A stretch of DNA of 10,900 nt from Flavobacteriia bacterium (lineage in GTDB: Bacteria; Bacteroidota; Bacteroidia; Flavobacteriales; Flavobacteriaceae), in NCBI GenBank assembly GCA_003973375.1, contig QNYL01000058.1, positions 1 through 10,900 on the forward strand, given 5' to 3'. Shown here piece after piece: positions 2,764 to 10,900 of this stretch. The position numbers and the translations under genes are program-made. The stretch's first letter is position 1; each line of letters opens with the position of its first letter. The notes below the pieces were generated by a model. That model had not been told where the DNA came from. It worked only from the letters and a program-made list of their open reading frames with translations, and did no database searches.

Positions 2764-3438
2764 ATGAAGATACTGATCGTTGAAGATGAAAAAGACCTGG
2801 CAGATGTTACCTGTAAATATCTGAAAAAAGAAGATTTTATTTGTGAATTTGCCTATAATTTTTTCGATGCAGAAGATAAACTGATTACTTACAATTATGA
2901 TATTGTAATTCTCGATATTAATTTACCCGATGGCAACGGAATGGATCTGTTAAAGATCATAAAAAAGCAATACCCTTCCACAGGTGTGCTTATTGTCAGT
3001 GCCAGAAATTCATTGGATGATAAACTCAAAGGACTCGATCTGGGAGCTGATGATTACATTACAAAACCCTTTCATCTTGCCGAACTGAATTCAAGAGTAA
3101 AATCGCTGATCAGAAGACAAAAATTCAAGGGACAGGATAGTATTTCATTTCATGAGATTGAGATCGATCCTACCGCAAGGTCTGTAAAAGTAAATCAGGA
3201 AACTGTTGGACTTACCCGTAAAGAATACAATCTATTGCTCTATTTTATTACCAATAAAGACCGTGTGCTTACCAAAGAATCGATTGCAGAACACCTTTGG
3301 GGAGACAGTATTGACATGGCTGATAACTTTGATTTTATTTACACCCATATGCGAAATCTCAGAAGAAAACTTAAGAAGAAAGGCGCAAAAGATTATCTTC
3401 AAACCATCTATGGTTTAGGCTATAAATTTGGTGATTAA
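2764..3438 (+). CDS. OmpR-family response regulator
   Basis: 224 residues, full length for the family. The receiver domain (about 1-115) keeps every key residue: acidic pocket Glu7-Asp8, phospho-acceptor Asp51 (ILDINLPDGNG), Ser79 (switch Thr/Ser position) and Lys101-Pro102 (ITKPFHLAEL). A winged-helix DNA-binding domain (about 125-224) follows, with LTRKEYNLLLYFITNKDRVLTKESIAEHLWG, an MRNLRRKLKKKGA recognition region and the closing IYGLGYKFGD wing. It is a cytoplasmic transcription regulator phosphorylated by the histidine kinase encoded next to it; the kinase ATG overlaps this gene's stop by one base (TAATG), indicating translational coupling. OmpR/PhoB-type regulators bind pairs of direct repeats with an 11-base period, and exactly such repeats precede three RNA-like units just downstream. 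I infer these are its targets. Confidence 0.95.
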   Translation: MKILIVEDEKDLADVTCKYLKKEDFICEFAYNFFDAEDKLITYNYDIVILDINLPDGNGMDLLKIIKKQYPSTGVLIVSARNSLDDKLKGLDLGADDYITKPFHLAELNSRVKSLIRRQKFKGQDSISFHEIEIDPTARSVKVNQETVGLTRKEYNLLLYFITNKDRVLTKESIAEHLWGDSIDMADNFDFIYTHMRNLRRKLKKKGAKDYLQTIYGLGYKFGD

Positions 3439-4685
3439 TGAAATTGATCCATAAAACCCGGAAAACTTATATTTTATACTCTATCATTATTTTTATAGTG
3501 TCGAGTACAATTATATATTTCATCTTTAAGAATATTATTGCCAAACGACAAGATGAAAAGCTGCTCTGGGATAAAAATATTATTGAACAGCGCATTAAAT
3601 ACGACTATCCTCTGCCTATTTTTGATGTTGAAGATTATAAGGCAAAGAATCCTGTAAAAGACACCCTTTATTATAAAGATACGCTGATGTATCAAATTAT
3701 TAAAGGAGTAGAGAATTATGAATTGTACAGACAGCTCACTTCTGTTGAAACGCTGCAGGGAAGAACCTATAAGATCATTACCCGGAGTTCTCTGGTAAAG
3801 AATCATGAATTTATTCTGGCCATCAGTTTATCTGTAGGTATTGTTATTTTATTACTGATCATTACCTTCTTTTTTATCAATACCATGGTGTTTAACCGGT
3901 TGTTAAAACCCTTTAATCATAATCTGAACTCACTAAAAAATTTTTCTGTAGAAAAGAATAAAAGTATAGAACTTGAGCAAACCGATATTGATGAGTTTAA
4001 AATTTTTAACGATTCTGTTTCAAAGCTCACCGAGAAACTGCGCAACGATTTTACCAATCTAAAAGAGTTTACCGATAATGCTTCGCATGAAATGCAAACT
4101 CCTTTAGCAATTATGCAGACAAAGCTTGAATATCTTATGCAGTCGGAAAATCTCAGGCATGAGGAAAAGAAATTGATCAGCGACATTTATTCAGCTTCAA
4201 AAAGACTATCGAAACTCAACAAGACCCTGCTGATGCTTTCGAAGATCGAAAACCAGCAATACAGCAATAAGGAAGAGATCGATATCAATGAAATTATTGT
4301 TGAACAACTTGAGATCTTTGAGGATTTTATCAGCAATAAGAAGCTTAAAGTTATAAAAAAACTTAAACCTGATGTAAAGATTGAAGCGAATCCAATGTTG
4401 TTTGATACCATCATTTCCAATCTGATTGGAAATTCGATAAAACACAATGTAAAAGGCGGAACCATTGAAATTGTTACAGATGAGCTCTTTTTTATGATCT
4501 CCAACAACGGAACAGAACTCAATACCGATTCCGACAAGATCTTTGAAAGATTTAAAAAAGAGAGTACCGCTTCGGATTCATTCGGGCTTGGACTGGCCAT
4601 TGTTAAAAAGATATGTGATGTACACGAATGGAAGATTAAACATAACTTTTCCGACCATATGCATTTTTTTACAATTTATTTTTAA
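3438..4685 (+). CDS. Sensor histidine kinase, partner of the OmpR-family regulator
   Basis: 415 residues. TM1 is about residues 11-34, a periplasmic sensor region of about 90 residues follows (35-125, no recognisable domain), and TM2 is about 126-149. A short cytoplasmic linker without a clear HAMP leads to the HisKA box NASHEMQTPLAIM with phospho-acceptor His217. The ATPase domain carries the N box (Asn328-Asn332...HN at 336-337), a variant G1 box ISNNGTEL (354-361), the F box IFERFKKES (368-376) and G2 box SFGLGLAIVKKICDVH (381-396). The usual G1 Asp is Asn356 and the second Gly is Glu360; related Bacteroidota kinases often vary here, so activity is still likely. It should autophosphorylate in response to an envelope signal and pass phosphate to Asp51 of the regulator. 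The signal is not deducible. The CTTCAGA-type operator of the first RNA unit begins 12 bases after its stop, with no terminator between. Confidence 0.93.
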   Translation: MKLIHKTRKTYILYSIIIFIVSSTIIYFIFKNIIAKRQDEKLLWDKNIIEQRIKYDYPLPIFDVEDYKAKNPVKDTLYYKDTLMYQIIKGVENYELYRQLTSVETLQGRTYKIITRSSLVKNHEFILAISLSVGIVILLLIITFFFINTMVFNRLLKPFNHNLNSLKNFSVEKNKSIELEQTDIDEFKIFNDSVSKLTEKLRNDFTNLKEFTDNASHEMQTPLAIMQTKLEYLMQSENLRHEEKKLISDIYSASKRLSKLNKTLLMLSKIENQQYSNKEEIDINEIIVEQLEIFEDFISNKKLKVIKKLKPDVKIEANPMLFDTIISNLIGNSIKHNVKGGTIEIVTDELFFMISNNGTELNTDSDKIFERFKKESTASDSFGLGLAIVKKICDVHEWKIKHNFSDHMHFFTIYF

Positions 4686-4696
4686 TTCTATTTAAA

Positions 4697-4731
4697 GTTC
4701 AAAATCTCTTCAGATTCAAAAAATATATTTG
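4697..4731 (+). promoter_or_regulatory. Direct-repeat operator and promoter of RNA unit 1
   Basis: Two 7-base repeats, GTTCAAA (4697-4703) and CTTCAGA (4708-4714), are spaced by 4 bases. Then come 9 bases and the -7 box TATATTTG (4724-4731). The expected start is G4736, 12 bases from the start of the box. Repeat length, 4-base spacer and placement over the -33 region match OmpR/PhoB-family activator sites; units 2 and 3 have the same geometry. Confidence 0.65.
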
Positions 4732-4735
4732 CCCT

Positions 4736-4967
4736 GTAAAAAGTTGATAATATCATCTTTTACTTATTTCAGAAAGTTCAAAATCATTTCAAAAATGATA
4801 CTGAAATAATCTGTCGCAAATGTGACAATCACCGTTAGATCTGCACTAATGTTATTTGAGGGAACTAATATTAGTACAATCTAACACGTACGCAAATATA
4901 ATTGGAATATTAAGCTTTTTTTATTTGTACAACATCTCCCGGTTCAAAGAATGAACCGGGATTTTTA
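4736..4967 (+). ncRNA. Structured small RNA, unit 1 of a tandem family
   Basis: About 230 bases between a TATATTTG promoter and a perfect terminator; no plausible reading frame. Predicted structure by eye: H1, GTAAAA/TTTTAC (4736-4741/4758-4763) closing a small TGAT/ATCA hairpin. H2, TTATTTCA/TGAAATAA (4764-4771/4802-4809), with an inner ATCATTT/AAATGAT stem (4783-4789/4793-4799) and an asymmetric bulge holding AAAGTTCAAA. A unit-specific hairpin TGTCGC/GTGACA (4812-4827). H3, GTTAGAT/ATCTAAC (4834-4840/4879-4885) and ACTAAT/ATTAGT (4845-4850/4870-4875), with a 19-base loop GTTATTTGAGGGAACTAAT. A 34-base linker (4901-4934), then the terminator. Units 2 and 3 repeat this plan with changed stem sequences that still pair, which supports RNA function. 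I do not recognise the family; a trans-acting regulatory RNA is the best guess. Confidence 0.7.
4937..4966 (+). terminator. Intrinsic terminator of RNA unit 1
   Basis: A perfect 10-base-pair stem TCCCGGTTCA/TGAACCGGGA (4937-4946/4952-4961) with a 5-base loop, followed by five T (4962-4966). Confidence 0.9.
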
Positions 4968-4970
4968 TAA

Positions 4971-5005
4971 CTTCAGATTATCTTCAGAATCTCCTCATAT
5001 ATTTG
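4971..5005 (+). promoter_or_regulatory. Direct-repeat operator and promoter of RNA unit 2
   Basis: Two identical CTTCAGA repeats (4971-4977 and 4982-4988) separated by TTAT, then 9 bases, then TATATTTG (4998-5005). Expected start G5010. This is the cleanest of the three sites. It begins 4 bases after the T-tract of unit 1's terminator. Confidence 0.7.
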
Positions 5006-5009
5006 CATT

Positions 5010-5216
5010 GTAATTGATTGAGAAATTGATTTCTTACAGATTTCGGAAAAGTTCAAGATCATAATTTTTATGAAAGCCGAAATAAAAAGTTAAACTTATT
5101 CATGTTAACTGAGGGGATTAATATGAGTAAGTTTAACAAAAAAATACATTGAAATATTAAGCTATTTTAATTTGCACAACAATCCCGGTTCATTCTTTTG
5201 AATCGGGATTTTTTTA
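5010..5216 (+). ncRNA. Structured small RNA, unit 2 of a tandem family
   Basis: About 205 bases. H1 is GTAA/TTAC (5010-5013/5034-5037) around a GAAA/TTTC hairpin. H2 is ATTTCGG/CCGAAAT (5040-5046/5077-5083) with an inner TCATAA/TTATGA stem (5059-5064/5068-5073), and the bulge between them carries AAAGTTCAAG, matching the bulge in unit 1. H3 is a 15-base-pair helix with one G-U pair (5089-5103/5123-5137) presenting a 19-base loop GTTAACTGAGGGGATTAAT, the same length as unit 1's loop and identical at 15 of 19 positions. The linker at 5148-5181 is identical to unit 1 at 30 of 34 bases. Stem sequences differ between units while pairing is kept, the mark of selection on structure. A 9-codon frame starting ATGAGTAAG at 5123 has no counterpart in the other units and is probably not translated. 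Confidence 0.72.
5181..5215 (+). terminator. Intrinsic terminator of RNA unit 2
   Basis: An 11-base-pair stem AATCCCGGTTC/GAATCGGGATT (5181-5191/5200-5210, one G-U pair) with an 8-base loop, running into a T-tract to 5215. It is clearly related to the unit 1 terminator. Confidence 0.9.
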
Positions 5217-5219
5217 TAA

Positions 5220-5254
5220 CTTCAGATTTCCTTTAGATTTGATTACTATATTGC
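5220..5254 (+). promoter_or_regulatory. Direct-repeat operator and promoter of RNA unit 3
   Basis: CTTCAGA (5220-5226) and CTTTAGA (5231-5237) are spaced by 4 bases, followed by 9 bases and a degenerate -7 box TATATTGC (5247-5254). Spacing is identical to units 1 and 2. The predicted start G5261 is two bases further from the box than in the other units. Confidence 0.6.
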
Positions 5255-5260
5255 ATACTT

Positions 5261-5428
5261 GTAAAGCGATTTTCTGTTTTTCTTCTTCGAAAAGAGGAAA
5301 TCATTTTTCTTACAAAATCTGTTTTTAATGAGGGGACAAATATTATTGCAGATTTTCTATTTTTTTACAAATACTCTAAATTTTGAGTTTACGAGTTAGA
5401 TAAAAAGCCCGTTCATCGGGCTTTTTTT
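5261..5428 (+). ncRNA. Structured small RNA, unit 3 of a tandem family (shorter, diverged)
   Basis: About 168 bases. H1 is enlarged: GTAA/TTAC (5261-5264/5310-5313) encloses GATTTTC/GGAAATC (5268-5274/5296-5302, one G-U pair) and an inner pyrimidine/purine hairpin. There is no H2 equivalent. H3 is AAAATCTG/CAGATTTT (5314-5321/5349-5356) and its loop includes TGAGGGGACAAAT (5329-5341), matching the core of the unit 1 and 2 loops. The linker is reduced, keeping only a CTATTTTTTTACAAAT resemblance. The terminator is of unrelated sequence. It is the most diverged member; the assignment rests on the shared operator, the shared GTAA...TTAC opening hairpin and the shared loop. Confidence 0.6.
5402..5428 (+). 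terminator. Intrinsic terminator of RNA unit 3
   Basis: Stem AAAAAGCCCG/CGGGCTTTTT (5402-5411/5417-5426) with loop TTCAT and a seven-T run (5422-5428). It insulates the RNA cluster from gyrB. Confidence 0.92.
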
Positions 5429-5472: not shown

Positions 5473-5495
5473 TTAATAACAATAATTGTTAATAA
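5473..5495. repeat. AT-rich inverted repeat upstream of gyrB, possible operator
   Basis: Arms TTAATAACAAT (5473-5483) and ATTGTTAATAA (5485-5495) flank a single central A; 10 of 11 arm positions pair, with a perfect 7-base core TAACAAT/ATTGTTA. It lies about 50 bases before the gyrB -7 box, where a repressor or activator dimer could bind. No partner can be named. Confidence 0.4.
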
Positions 5496-5543
5496 GTCGG
5501 TTCTTTTAATCAAATATTTTAAGTCTAAAAACAGTGCTTTTAC

Positions 5544-5559
5544 TATATTTGTACGTTTG
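5544..5559 (+). promoter_or_regulatory. Two adjacent -7 boxes for gyrB
   Basis: TATATTTG (5544-5551) is followed directly by TACGTTTG (5552-5559); both match TAnnTTTG. Predicted starts are near 5556 and 5564, giving leaders of about 25-35 bases before the ATG. No clear -33 element. Together with the inverted repeat at 5473-5495 this is all I see between the RNA cluster and gyrB. Confidence 0.55.
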
Positions 5560-5586: not shown

Positions 5587-7530
<1,944 letters not shown>

Positions 7531-9418: not shown

Positions 9419-10900
9419 ATGAGTAAAGTTATACGAATTGGAACAGCACCGGATGAAATGGCTCTCTGGCAGGCCGAAACTGTTGCAAAACAATTAGAAT
9501 ATCTCGAACATAAAACTAAAGTGGTTATTATAAACACTTTAGATAAAAACAGTACAAAAAAACCGGTTTATAAAACCGGCGATGTTTATGTTTATACCCG
9601 GTATTTAGATACAGCTTTACTCAATAACCAAATTGATATTGCCATTTATGCGTTAAAAGATGTTCCTCCTTCCCTTCCGGAAGGAATTGTTCAGGCAGCT
9701 GTTTTAAAAAGAGGAAATTTTAACGATGTACTTATCCTAAAGGAAGATGAAGAGTTTTTTACCCATAAAACAGCCAACATTGCAGTAAGCAGTATCCGGT
9801 GTAAATCGCAATGGCTCCACCGCTTTCCAAATCATCAGATGATCGATATTGAAGGTGATGTAAGAACAAGGCTTAAAGCATTGGATGATCTGAACTGGGA
9901 TGCTGCAGTTTTTACTCAGACAGAACTAAAGAAATTAGATCTCTTACCCGAAGATCACCTCCGGTTAGACTGGATGCTTCCTGCTGCAGGGCAGGGAACT
10001 ATTATGATCAGTACTTTGAAAGAAAGTGAAGCTTTAATTGAGATTTGTAAGGAACTGAATCATAAAGAAACTGAGATCTGTACAGGTATAGAAAGAGCCT
10101 TTCTGGATTCTCTCGGGGCTGATCAGAATTCACCTGTAGGAGCTTTGGCCACTATTAAAAATGAAAAATTAAAGTTCAAAGGAGCTGTTTTCAGTCCTGA
10201 CGGAAGATCACGGATAGAATTTACCAAAATGACTCCTGTTGAAGAACTGGATGATCTTGGAAATTTTGCTGCCCGATATATTATCGACCGGAATGGAGAA
10301 AAGATCATGAGGGAAAGAATGAAAGCCGACAAAGATATCAAGGTTTTCTCTACCAAAGCTTTATCTCTTACTCAAACCAAGATATTATCTTCTCATATTC
10401 AGGTAGATATGGATGACTTTGTACGCATCAGATATACAAGAGTAAAACCAAGTGTTTTTAACAGGACAATAGAAAATGTATTGTTTACCAGCCCGGATGC
10501 CGTAACCGCAATTCTAAGCAATTTTTCACCGGCTGAATTTGATTTTAAACATATTTACTGTGCCGGAAGAAAGACCAAACGACTTATAGAAAAGCATATC
10601 GCTAAAGTAACTCACTTTGAAAGTACTCCTGAAAAATTATCAGAATACCTTACCTCAAACATAAAACCGGAAGTTATTACCTACTTTACAGGAAATAATG
10701 AAGGTACAGAGATCATTAAAAAACTTGAATCCAGCGGATTAAAGGTTAAGGAGATCGAATGCTACAGAACTGTACTCAATTCTAAAAAAATCGATCCTAT
10801 ATATAAAGGTGTCCTTTTCTTCAGTACAAGAGCCATTGAAAGTTTTCTGAAAGAGGGAAATCAGGATACTACAAAATTTTCAAGTATTGAAGAACTTGAA
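9419..10900 (+). CDS. HemC-HemD fusion with a degenerate HemC active site (partial, runs off the edge)
   Basis: From ATG 9419 the frame is open for 494 codons to the window end. Residues 1 to about 305 are a porphobilinogen deaminase (HemC) of flavobacterial type: RIGTAPDEMALWQA (6-19), ALKDVPPSLPEGIVQAAVLKR (78-98), WLHRFPNH, and MLPAAGQGTI. From about 308 it is uroporphyrinogen-III synthase (HemD): FTSPDAV (356-362), CAGRKTKRLIEK (381-392), YFTGNNEG, and FFSTRAIESFL (467-477). The two normally act in succession in heme and siroheme synthesis. Catalytic Asp81 (E. coli Asp84), Lys80, Arg127 and Arg151 remain. Against the E. coli enzyme the following are changed: Arg11 to Ala10, Ser13 to Asp12, Lys59 to Val56, His80 to Tyr77, Ser81 to Ala78, Arg132 to Cys128, Arg149 to Glu145, Arg176 to Lys172, and the cofactor-attaching Cys242 to Gln236. 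The frame shows no stops or shifts, so this is not simple decay. The HemD half looks normal; deaminase activity is doubtful. Confidence 0.85.
   Translation, partial: MSKVIRIGTAPDEMALWQAETVAKQLEYLEHKTKVVIINTLDKNSTKKPVYKTGDVYVYTRYLDTALLNNQIDIAIYALKDVPPSLPEGIVQAAVLKRGNFNDVLILKEDEEFFTHKTANIAVSSIRCKSQWLHRFPNHQMIDIEGDVRTRLKALDDLNWDAAVFTQTELKKLDLLPEDHLRLDWMLPAAGQGTIMISTLKESEALIEICKELNHKETEICTGIERAFLDSLGADQNSPVGALATIKNEKLKFKGAVFSPDGRSRIEFTKMTPVEELDDLGNFAARYIIDRNGEKIMRERMKADKDIKVFSTKALSLTQTKILSSHIQVDMDDFVRIRYTRVKPSVFNRTIENVLFTSPDAVTAILSNFSPAEFDFKHIYCAGRKTKRLIEKHIAKVTHFESTPEKLSEYLTSNIKPEVITYFTGNNEGTEIIKKLESSGLKVKEIECYRTVLNSKKIDPIYKGVLFFSTRAIESFLKEGNQDTTKFSSIEELE

Follow-up and report, generated by a model that had tools for sequence, protein, structure and literature searches.

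Small RNAs under the control of a two-component system are an already known kind of bacterial regulation. The enterobacterial OmrA and OmrB are tandem sibling small RNAs under EnvZ/OmpR; they are Hfq-dependent, and their genes are not known to lie beside the regulator genes. In GacA-controlled systems of the CsrB/RsmY type, RNA genes are the direct output of the regulator and the transcripts carry GGA words in hairpins. For CiaRH of Streptococcus, csRNA1-5 are described as similar small RNAs of 87-151 nt under one response regulator, acting additively through a single-stranded seed against the Shine-Dalgarno sequence and the AUG (PMC4387999). FopS and GibS of Bacteroides thetaiotaomicron are paralogous small RNAs with intrinsic terminators, the FopS group comprising 14 members that have a single-stranded seed at the 5' end and bind the RRM protein RbpB (PMC11697453). 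Rfp18 of Flavobacterium psychrophilum and F. columnare is described as a structured and conserved small RNA without which two metalloprotease mRNAs do not reach their normal levels (PMC9723704).

We analysed a window, the whole stretch of 10,900 nucleotides from a Flavobacteriia bacterium, in which three predicted RNA genes lie between a kinase gene and gyrB. Like csRNA1-5, these are several similar small RNAs with one proposed response regulator, and a conserved repeat at a fixed distance before the units is a candidate site for it; unlike the csRNAs as described, they stand in tandem beside the kinase gene, are longer and carry a conserved word in a hairpin loop. The comparison is with the published description and implies no sequence link. 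With OmrA/OmrB they share the tandem sibling arrangement and, as proposed here, an OmpR-type regulator, no sequence relation being claimed. RNA genes as regulator output (again as proposed) and a GGA word in a hairpin recall CsrB/RsmY, but the partner of those RNAs, CsrA (PF02599), was found in 0 of the 6 genomes searched here (control search positive in 3 of 14 named genomes). FopS and GibS are likewise paralogous, belong to the same phylum and end in intrinsic terminators; unlike the situation of FopS, RRM_1 proteins (RbpB type) were detected in 0 of the 6 genomes (control positive in 2 of 14, including a Bacteroides), a result on which an RRM-type chaperone was rejected and which counts against our preferred reading. 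Rfam 15 scans of the window and seven loci gave no FopS match, the inclusion of a FopS model in release 15 being uncertain. Rfp18, structured, conserved and from the same bacterial family, is a possible relative. A search of open-licence PMC papers returned no description of the RNA family, its repeat or the change of output discussed below.

Three RNA units between a kinase gene and gyrB

The genome that contains the window (G000) is assembled to 2.09 Mb and 76% complete, and its nearest named relatives are uncultured Flavobacteriaceae. The gene order is two DUF2911 genes (minus strand), a PagL-type gene, an OmpR-type regulator, a PorY-family kinase, a gap, gyrB and malate dehydrogenase; the DUF2911 genes form an adjacent pair at 223-1340. 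The kinase is assigned to the PorY family by its NCBIfam score, and a type IX secretion role for it is putative. An ORF scan of the 904 bases between the kinase gene and gyrB gave 0 forward ATG-started ORFs of at least 80 amino acids. The features of this slot and its borders are as follows:

2764..3438, + strand: response regulator of OmpR type and putative activator of the RNA genes (Pfam Response_reg, 95.5 bits, and Trans_reg_C, 71.7 bits, each above its cut-off)
3438..4685, + strand: sensor histidine kinase, PorY family (NCBIfam NF052314, 422.4 bits against a cut-off of 350)
4698..4716, + strand: direct repeat of unit 1, one mismatch, proposed regulator site (pattern search)
4724..4731, + strand: -7 box of unit 1, TATATTTG (read from the sequence)
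4736..4965, + strand: RNA unit 1, predicted transcript (fold z -6.07; model match 4825-4930, 97.9 bits)
4937..4965, + strand: terminator of unit 1 (terminator scan)
4972..4990, + strand: direct repeat of unit 2, exact (pattern search)
4998..5005, + strand: -7 box of unit 2, TATATTTG (read from the sequence)
5010..5214, + strand: RNA unit 2, predicted transcript, loop TGAGGGGA at 5110 (fold z -6.80; model match 5080-5177, 92.4 bits)
5181..5214, + strand: terminator of unit 2 (terminator scan)
5221..5239, + strand: direct repeat of unit 3, exact (pattern search)
5247..5254, + strand: -7-like box of unit 3, TATATTGC, weaker and imperfect (read from the sequence)
5261..5428, + strand: RNA unit 3, predicted transcript, divergent, loop TGAGGGGA at 5329 (fold z -3.31; conserved in the relative G001)
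5402..5428, + strand: terminator of unit 3, GCCCG-TTCAT-CGGGC with A and T runs (read from the sequence)
5544..5551, + strand: -7-type box TATATTTG directly 5' of gyrB (read from the sequence)
5590..7530, + strand: gyrB, right border of the slot (TIGR01059, 935.8 bits against a cut-off of 882.4)

The original prediction had placed three promoter-RNA-terminator units at 4697-5428. The units stand, with a weaker third -7 box and a third terminator recognised by reading only: the terminator scan of the window found two, those of units 1 and 2, against 0.2 expected, and that of unit 3 was absent from its output. A scan with an E. coli-type promoter model, which lies outside the promoter type of this phylum, returned 3 matches against 5.4 expected and therefore gives the units no support. 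The box at 5544..5551 is likely the promoter of gyrB itself, a prediction from its position; similar boxes also stand 5' of gyrB in the printed loci of relatives.

For each of the three units, 0 of 200 shuffles reached as good a fold energy. The predicted loop word TGAGGGRA is present throughout, as TGAGGGAA in unit 1 (at 4857, the 3' hairpin ending near 4930) and as TGAGGGGA in units 2 and 3, and the H3 helices named earlier were recovered in the computed folds. The 5' GTAA...TTAC hairpin, claimed for every unit, stood in part: its letters occur in 3 of 3 units and the local hairpin forms in unit 1 (centroid fold) and in a 74-nt fold of unit 2, but when units 2 and 3 are folded at full length the minimum-energy structures lack it, GTAA pairing with other bases.

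A covariance model, which the original prediction had suggested for an Infernal search, was built from 11 units and run on loci reached through the kinase. At E <= 0.05 it matched 25 times across 13 loci, and 11 of these units were in the building set or were copies of its members; units 1 and 2 of the window, with their matches listed above, both belong to that set, and the divergent unit 3 had no match at this threshold. Two-sided changes occur in 20 of 27 pairs when the 25 matches are aligned to the model, 88.8% of the cells pair, and the covariation score is 0.499 against 0.201 for shuffled alignments and no more than 0.111 when the pairing partners are shifted by 1-3 columns, values from an alignment that was fitted to the structure and so leans towards it. 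With RNAalifold on the 11 MAFFT-aligned units, 12 of 27 pairs show such changes. The covariation of the RNA units across genomes is real, as the pairing among the three units had led the original prediction to expect. Of the 25 aligned rows, 24 have the word TGAGGGG (unit 1 of the window reads TGAGGGA) and 23 have TTAAGC at the apex of the 3' hairpin.

The gap has matches in 5 of 5 other sampled genomes of the genus (in G002 partial, at a contig end), and the order kinase, RNA, gyrB is preserved in G030, from another genus. Family-wide searches with Infernal's stricter filters found the RNA family in 3 of 149 genomes (2 of 148 genera) and in 5 of 397 (2 of 237 genera). Among the family genomes searched in this way the RNA family is rare, and its absence elsewhere is soft because the filters are strict and G001, G002 and G004 were not among the sampled matches. 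Rfam 15, with 6S-Flavo and Flavo-1 included, gave nothing over threshold in the window (best 25.9 bits against a cut-off of 60), and the seven related loci gave one match up to E 0.1, at 31.7 against 50 and outside the units. A known Rfam family was rejected on these scans, in agreement with the earlier statement that no named family has this plan, and the units are supported as a family of structured RNA genes outside Rfam 15.

A direct repeat before the -7 boxes

The original prediction had overlooked an element of control that fits the neighbouring regulator: a direct repeat, TTCAGAWT-N3-TTYAGAWT, lies 7 nt upstream of the -7 box of each unit, its half sites 11 bases apart. Repeats with an 11-base spacing directly 5' of the promoter core are what OmpR-type activators use, and from its sequence the repeat looks like a candidate site for the OmpR-type regulator encoded next to it. 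Besides marking the locus, the two-component system probably controls the RNAs. In 12 loci of the RNA type we counted 26 sites (at most two mismatches plus a -7-like box), 20 exact and 6 with one mismatch, and the distance from repeat to box was 7 in 26 of 26 with 6-8 allowed. The exact repeat occurs in the window's own genome in two places, both here, before units 2 and 3; with at most one mismatch there are seven places, three of them in the gap, and 0 for the reversed control. Across eight genomes the repeat with a -7 box, allowing up to two mismatches, was found in 40 places versus 2 for the control.

Some observations count against our preferred reading. Four one-mismatch repeats elsewhere in the window's own genome have no clear promoter setting, and three own-genome repeats, L035, L036 and L038, appear to be chance occurrences. 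Locus L053 has a repeat at 6288 without a model match. Conversely, a third RNA match in L051 (5924-6023) has a possible -7 box and no recognised repeat, and is perhaps under other control.

Further sites precede a gene for an OmpA-family lipoprotein in G030, G280 and G251, which points to an envelope regulon. In the window's own genome a two-mismatch repeat with a -7 box (G000:C9:365-397, L166) stands before a lipoprotein gene with a similar start; the contig end cuts this gene, and a Pfam scan of the fragment gave no match over the cut-off. Another two-mismatch repeat with a -7 box, L037 (about 1501-1533 of G000:C84), recurs with the same 33 letters at G001:C64:8850-8882, upstream of a gene that by eye we take to encode PBP1A, and may be either a further member of the regulon or merely conserved sequence.

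Protein genes in the same slot of related genomes

A comparison with sister genomes, likewise overlooked before, revealed protein genes filling the same slot. There the sister clade has between one and three genes for small, secreted PepSY-like proteins, and in L054-L059, whose kinases are 48-52% identical to that of the window, the same kind of site precedes genes for secreted proteins of about 100 amino acids. In the gap, none of the 10 RNA-type loci scanned has a forward ORF of at least 80 amino acids, and each of the 5 protein-type loci whose gap is complete has 1 to 3. When the small proteins of L059 and L053 were scanned with PepSY-like Pfam models, their scores stayed under the cut-off, the best being 22.5 bits where 28.3 is required. 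In the kinase tree, RNA-type loci form one group (96/99) and PepSY-type loci another (99/98). The outgroup locus L092 encodes, 3' of the kinase, a protein with 60 bits to PepSY_like, preceded by a two-mismatch site; in L094 and L096 the kinase is followed by what by eye is presumably an outer-membrane protein. The protein output is likely the older state on this comparison, and only likely because the outgroup branches on the kinase tree are long.

The recognition helix of the regulator and its site differ together between the clades at the sequence level. The stretch THMRNLR is present in 13 of 13 RNA-type regulators, with R replaced by G or V in 7 of 7 of the protein type, and the first half site begins with TTC in 25 of 26 RNA-type sites versus 1 of 11 protein-type sites, the latter taken from a search whose pattern favoured TTC. 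The sole protein-type site with the RNA-type half site TTCAGA, in L057 at 6301, counts against our preferred reading.

Locus L053, from the RNA clade, has both outputs, with a PepSY-like gene behind a repeat array near the regulator gene and an RNA before gyrB. A DUF2911 pair, recognised by eye and presumably similar to that of the window, flanks this PepSY-like gene. The protein of this PepSY-like gene was matched in 13 of 60 genomes and had no match in G001, G003, G004 or G030. Weak PepSY-like matches elsewhere in G000, G002 and G005 (E 1.5e-4 to 6.4e-4) count against our preferred reading; no repeat site was found in the sequence stretch examined around them.

Four genomes of the sister clade also have a unit without an ORF. 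In L055 and L057 the last unit before gyrB lacks an ORF and comprises the site, the -7 box and a 3' end that resembles those of the protein genes. Aureibaculum marinum (L148), whose full gene is split over two contigs, and L171 (G341, same genus) have a full gene, a cut gene of 47 amino acids and an ORF-less unit in a row, and in Aureibaculum-group genomes these three kinds of unit have a 3' word and terminator in common. The 18-mer GCAAATTGGGTTGATTGC is unchanged in eight places of L054, L058, L059 and L148 and in two of G341; it occurs in 4 of 397 genomes, with single one-mismatch places in G018 and G309. An 18-mer hairpin word, unchanged throughout, lies in PepSY-like 3'UTRs of L054 (6677/7161), L058 (2938), L059 (3969/4613/5386), L148 and L171, and from its sequence is possibly a 3'UTR-derived small RNA of its own. 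In the 3' hairpin of the RNAs, TTAAGC is followed by TGTTT or TATTT, the order seen in the 3' arm of the protein-gene terminators.

The units in a row, the ORF-less end units and the common TTAAGC order suggest descent of the RNA genes from PepSY-like genes, a reading that we hold tentatively and would not yet call probable. Reading frames would have been lost singly, promoter, 3'UTR hairpin and terminator kept, and the leftover transcripts would have become the output; the 3'UTRs of the protein clade may already work as RNA. Alignments of the RNA units with protein-gene 3' ends gave 0 significant results, and in L054, L055 and L059 the RNA model reached only noise-level scores. An independent origin of the RNAs is one alternative to this descent.

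Proposed mechanism and alternative explanations

The reading we favour, and consider reasonably probable, is that an envelope-type two-component system activates three tandem sibling RNAs via the repeat, in place of a PepSY-like protein output. A signal would pass from the PorY-family kinase to the OmpR-type regulator, which would activate the three non-coding RNA genes that follow in tandem, each with its own terminator, through the two-half-site repeat 7 nt before the -7 box, and the RNAs, with their common TGAGGG(G/A)A loop, would most likely act on mRNAs as partly redundant siblings. In the sister clade the slot of the RNAs holds PepSY-like genes preceded by a site of the same kind, so that in one lineage the system's local output would have switched from protein to RNA. 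Sequence comparison supports the RNA family, its structure, the repeat and its spacing, the position and one tree group per state; we infer that the regulator binds the repeat and activates the units, that RNA and mRNA pair, and that the system serves the envelope. How bacterial small RNA genes arise can rarely be seen. In this case a single kind of site and a single slot go with protein genes in one clade and with RNA genes in the other, and L053 (both outputs) and Aureibaculum-group genomes (cut and ORF-less units) may represent intermediate states. If true, this would be a case in which the passage of a signalling output from protein to RNA can be traced. It would give Flavobacteriaceae a proposed small-RNA arm of an envelope system with testable handles: a site, a regulator and a cultured species, A. 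marinum, that has an ORF-less unit.

Action on mRNAs through the common loop is modelled on the CiaRH csRNAs and would make the units the multi-copy trans-acting system of the original prediction, of which the three paralogous RNAs in sibling layout held up and trans action is putative, the target search giving nothing usable, which counts against our preferred reading. That search used one loop complement. With at most one mismatch, ATTCCCCTCA occurs, against the reversed control, 102/51 times in G000, 162/130 in G001, 84/50 in G003, 87/52 in G005, 203/123 in G030 and 187/114 in G280; this excess in 6 of 6 genomes is taken as no evidence of targets because the control was the reversed word only. 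The loci with exact ATTCCCCTCA (one strand, 13 printed, including the RNA units) had no conserved site near a start codon, a weak negative.

Alternatively, the RNAs could use the GGGGA loop to bind and sequester a protein, in the manner of CsrB/RsmY under GacA. The several RNA copies, the invariant GGGG loop in a hairpin and a regulator with few own-genome sites beyond the RNA genes are consistent with such a sponge, but each RNA has one such loop only, and a CsrA sponge was rejected because CsrA was found in none of the six genomes; a sponge for another protein is possible, and the explanation as a whole appears unlikely. The full, cut and ORF-less units in a row of two Aureibaculum-group genomes could also mean that the units are functionless relics, promoters and 3' ends left from decayed PepSY-like genes. 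That the RNA clade keeps its structure by compensating changes, and its TGAGGGG loop in nearly every row while the kinases diverged to about 60% identity, makes this very unlikely.

Compensating changes at paired positions also argue against small peptides encoded across the loop (e.g., MLTEGIN...). Units 1 and 2 of the window, like close relatives, do have an ATG in frame with the GAG of the loop, but only 7 of the 25 aligned units have one before the loop; a loop-spanning peptide was rejected on that count and we regard peptide-coding units as highly improbable. The position of the units just upstream of gyrB, on the same strand, would suit leader or attenuator elements of that gene, an explanation to which we give next to no credence: a terminator closes each unit, gyrB has its separate -7-type box (the grounds on which a gyrB leader was rejected), and in the sister clade protein genes or an ORF-less unit precede gyrB instead.

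Two minor observations concern the right part of the window. Words like TGTTGATAACTT or TGTTAATAA recur upstream of gyrB, in the window at 5485-5500 and in the printed loci of relatives, and resemble a DnaA box on the other strand. The ORF at 9419-10900, which runs past the window end, reads by eye like what is presumably a HemC-HemD fusion.
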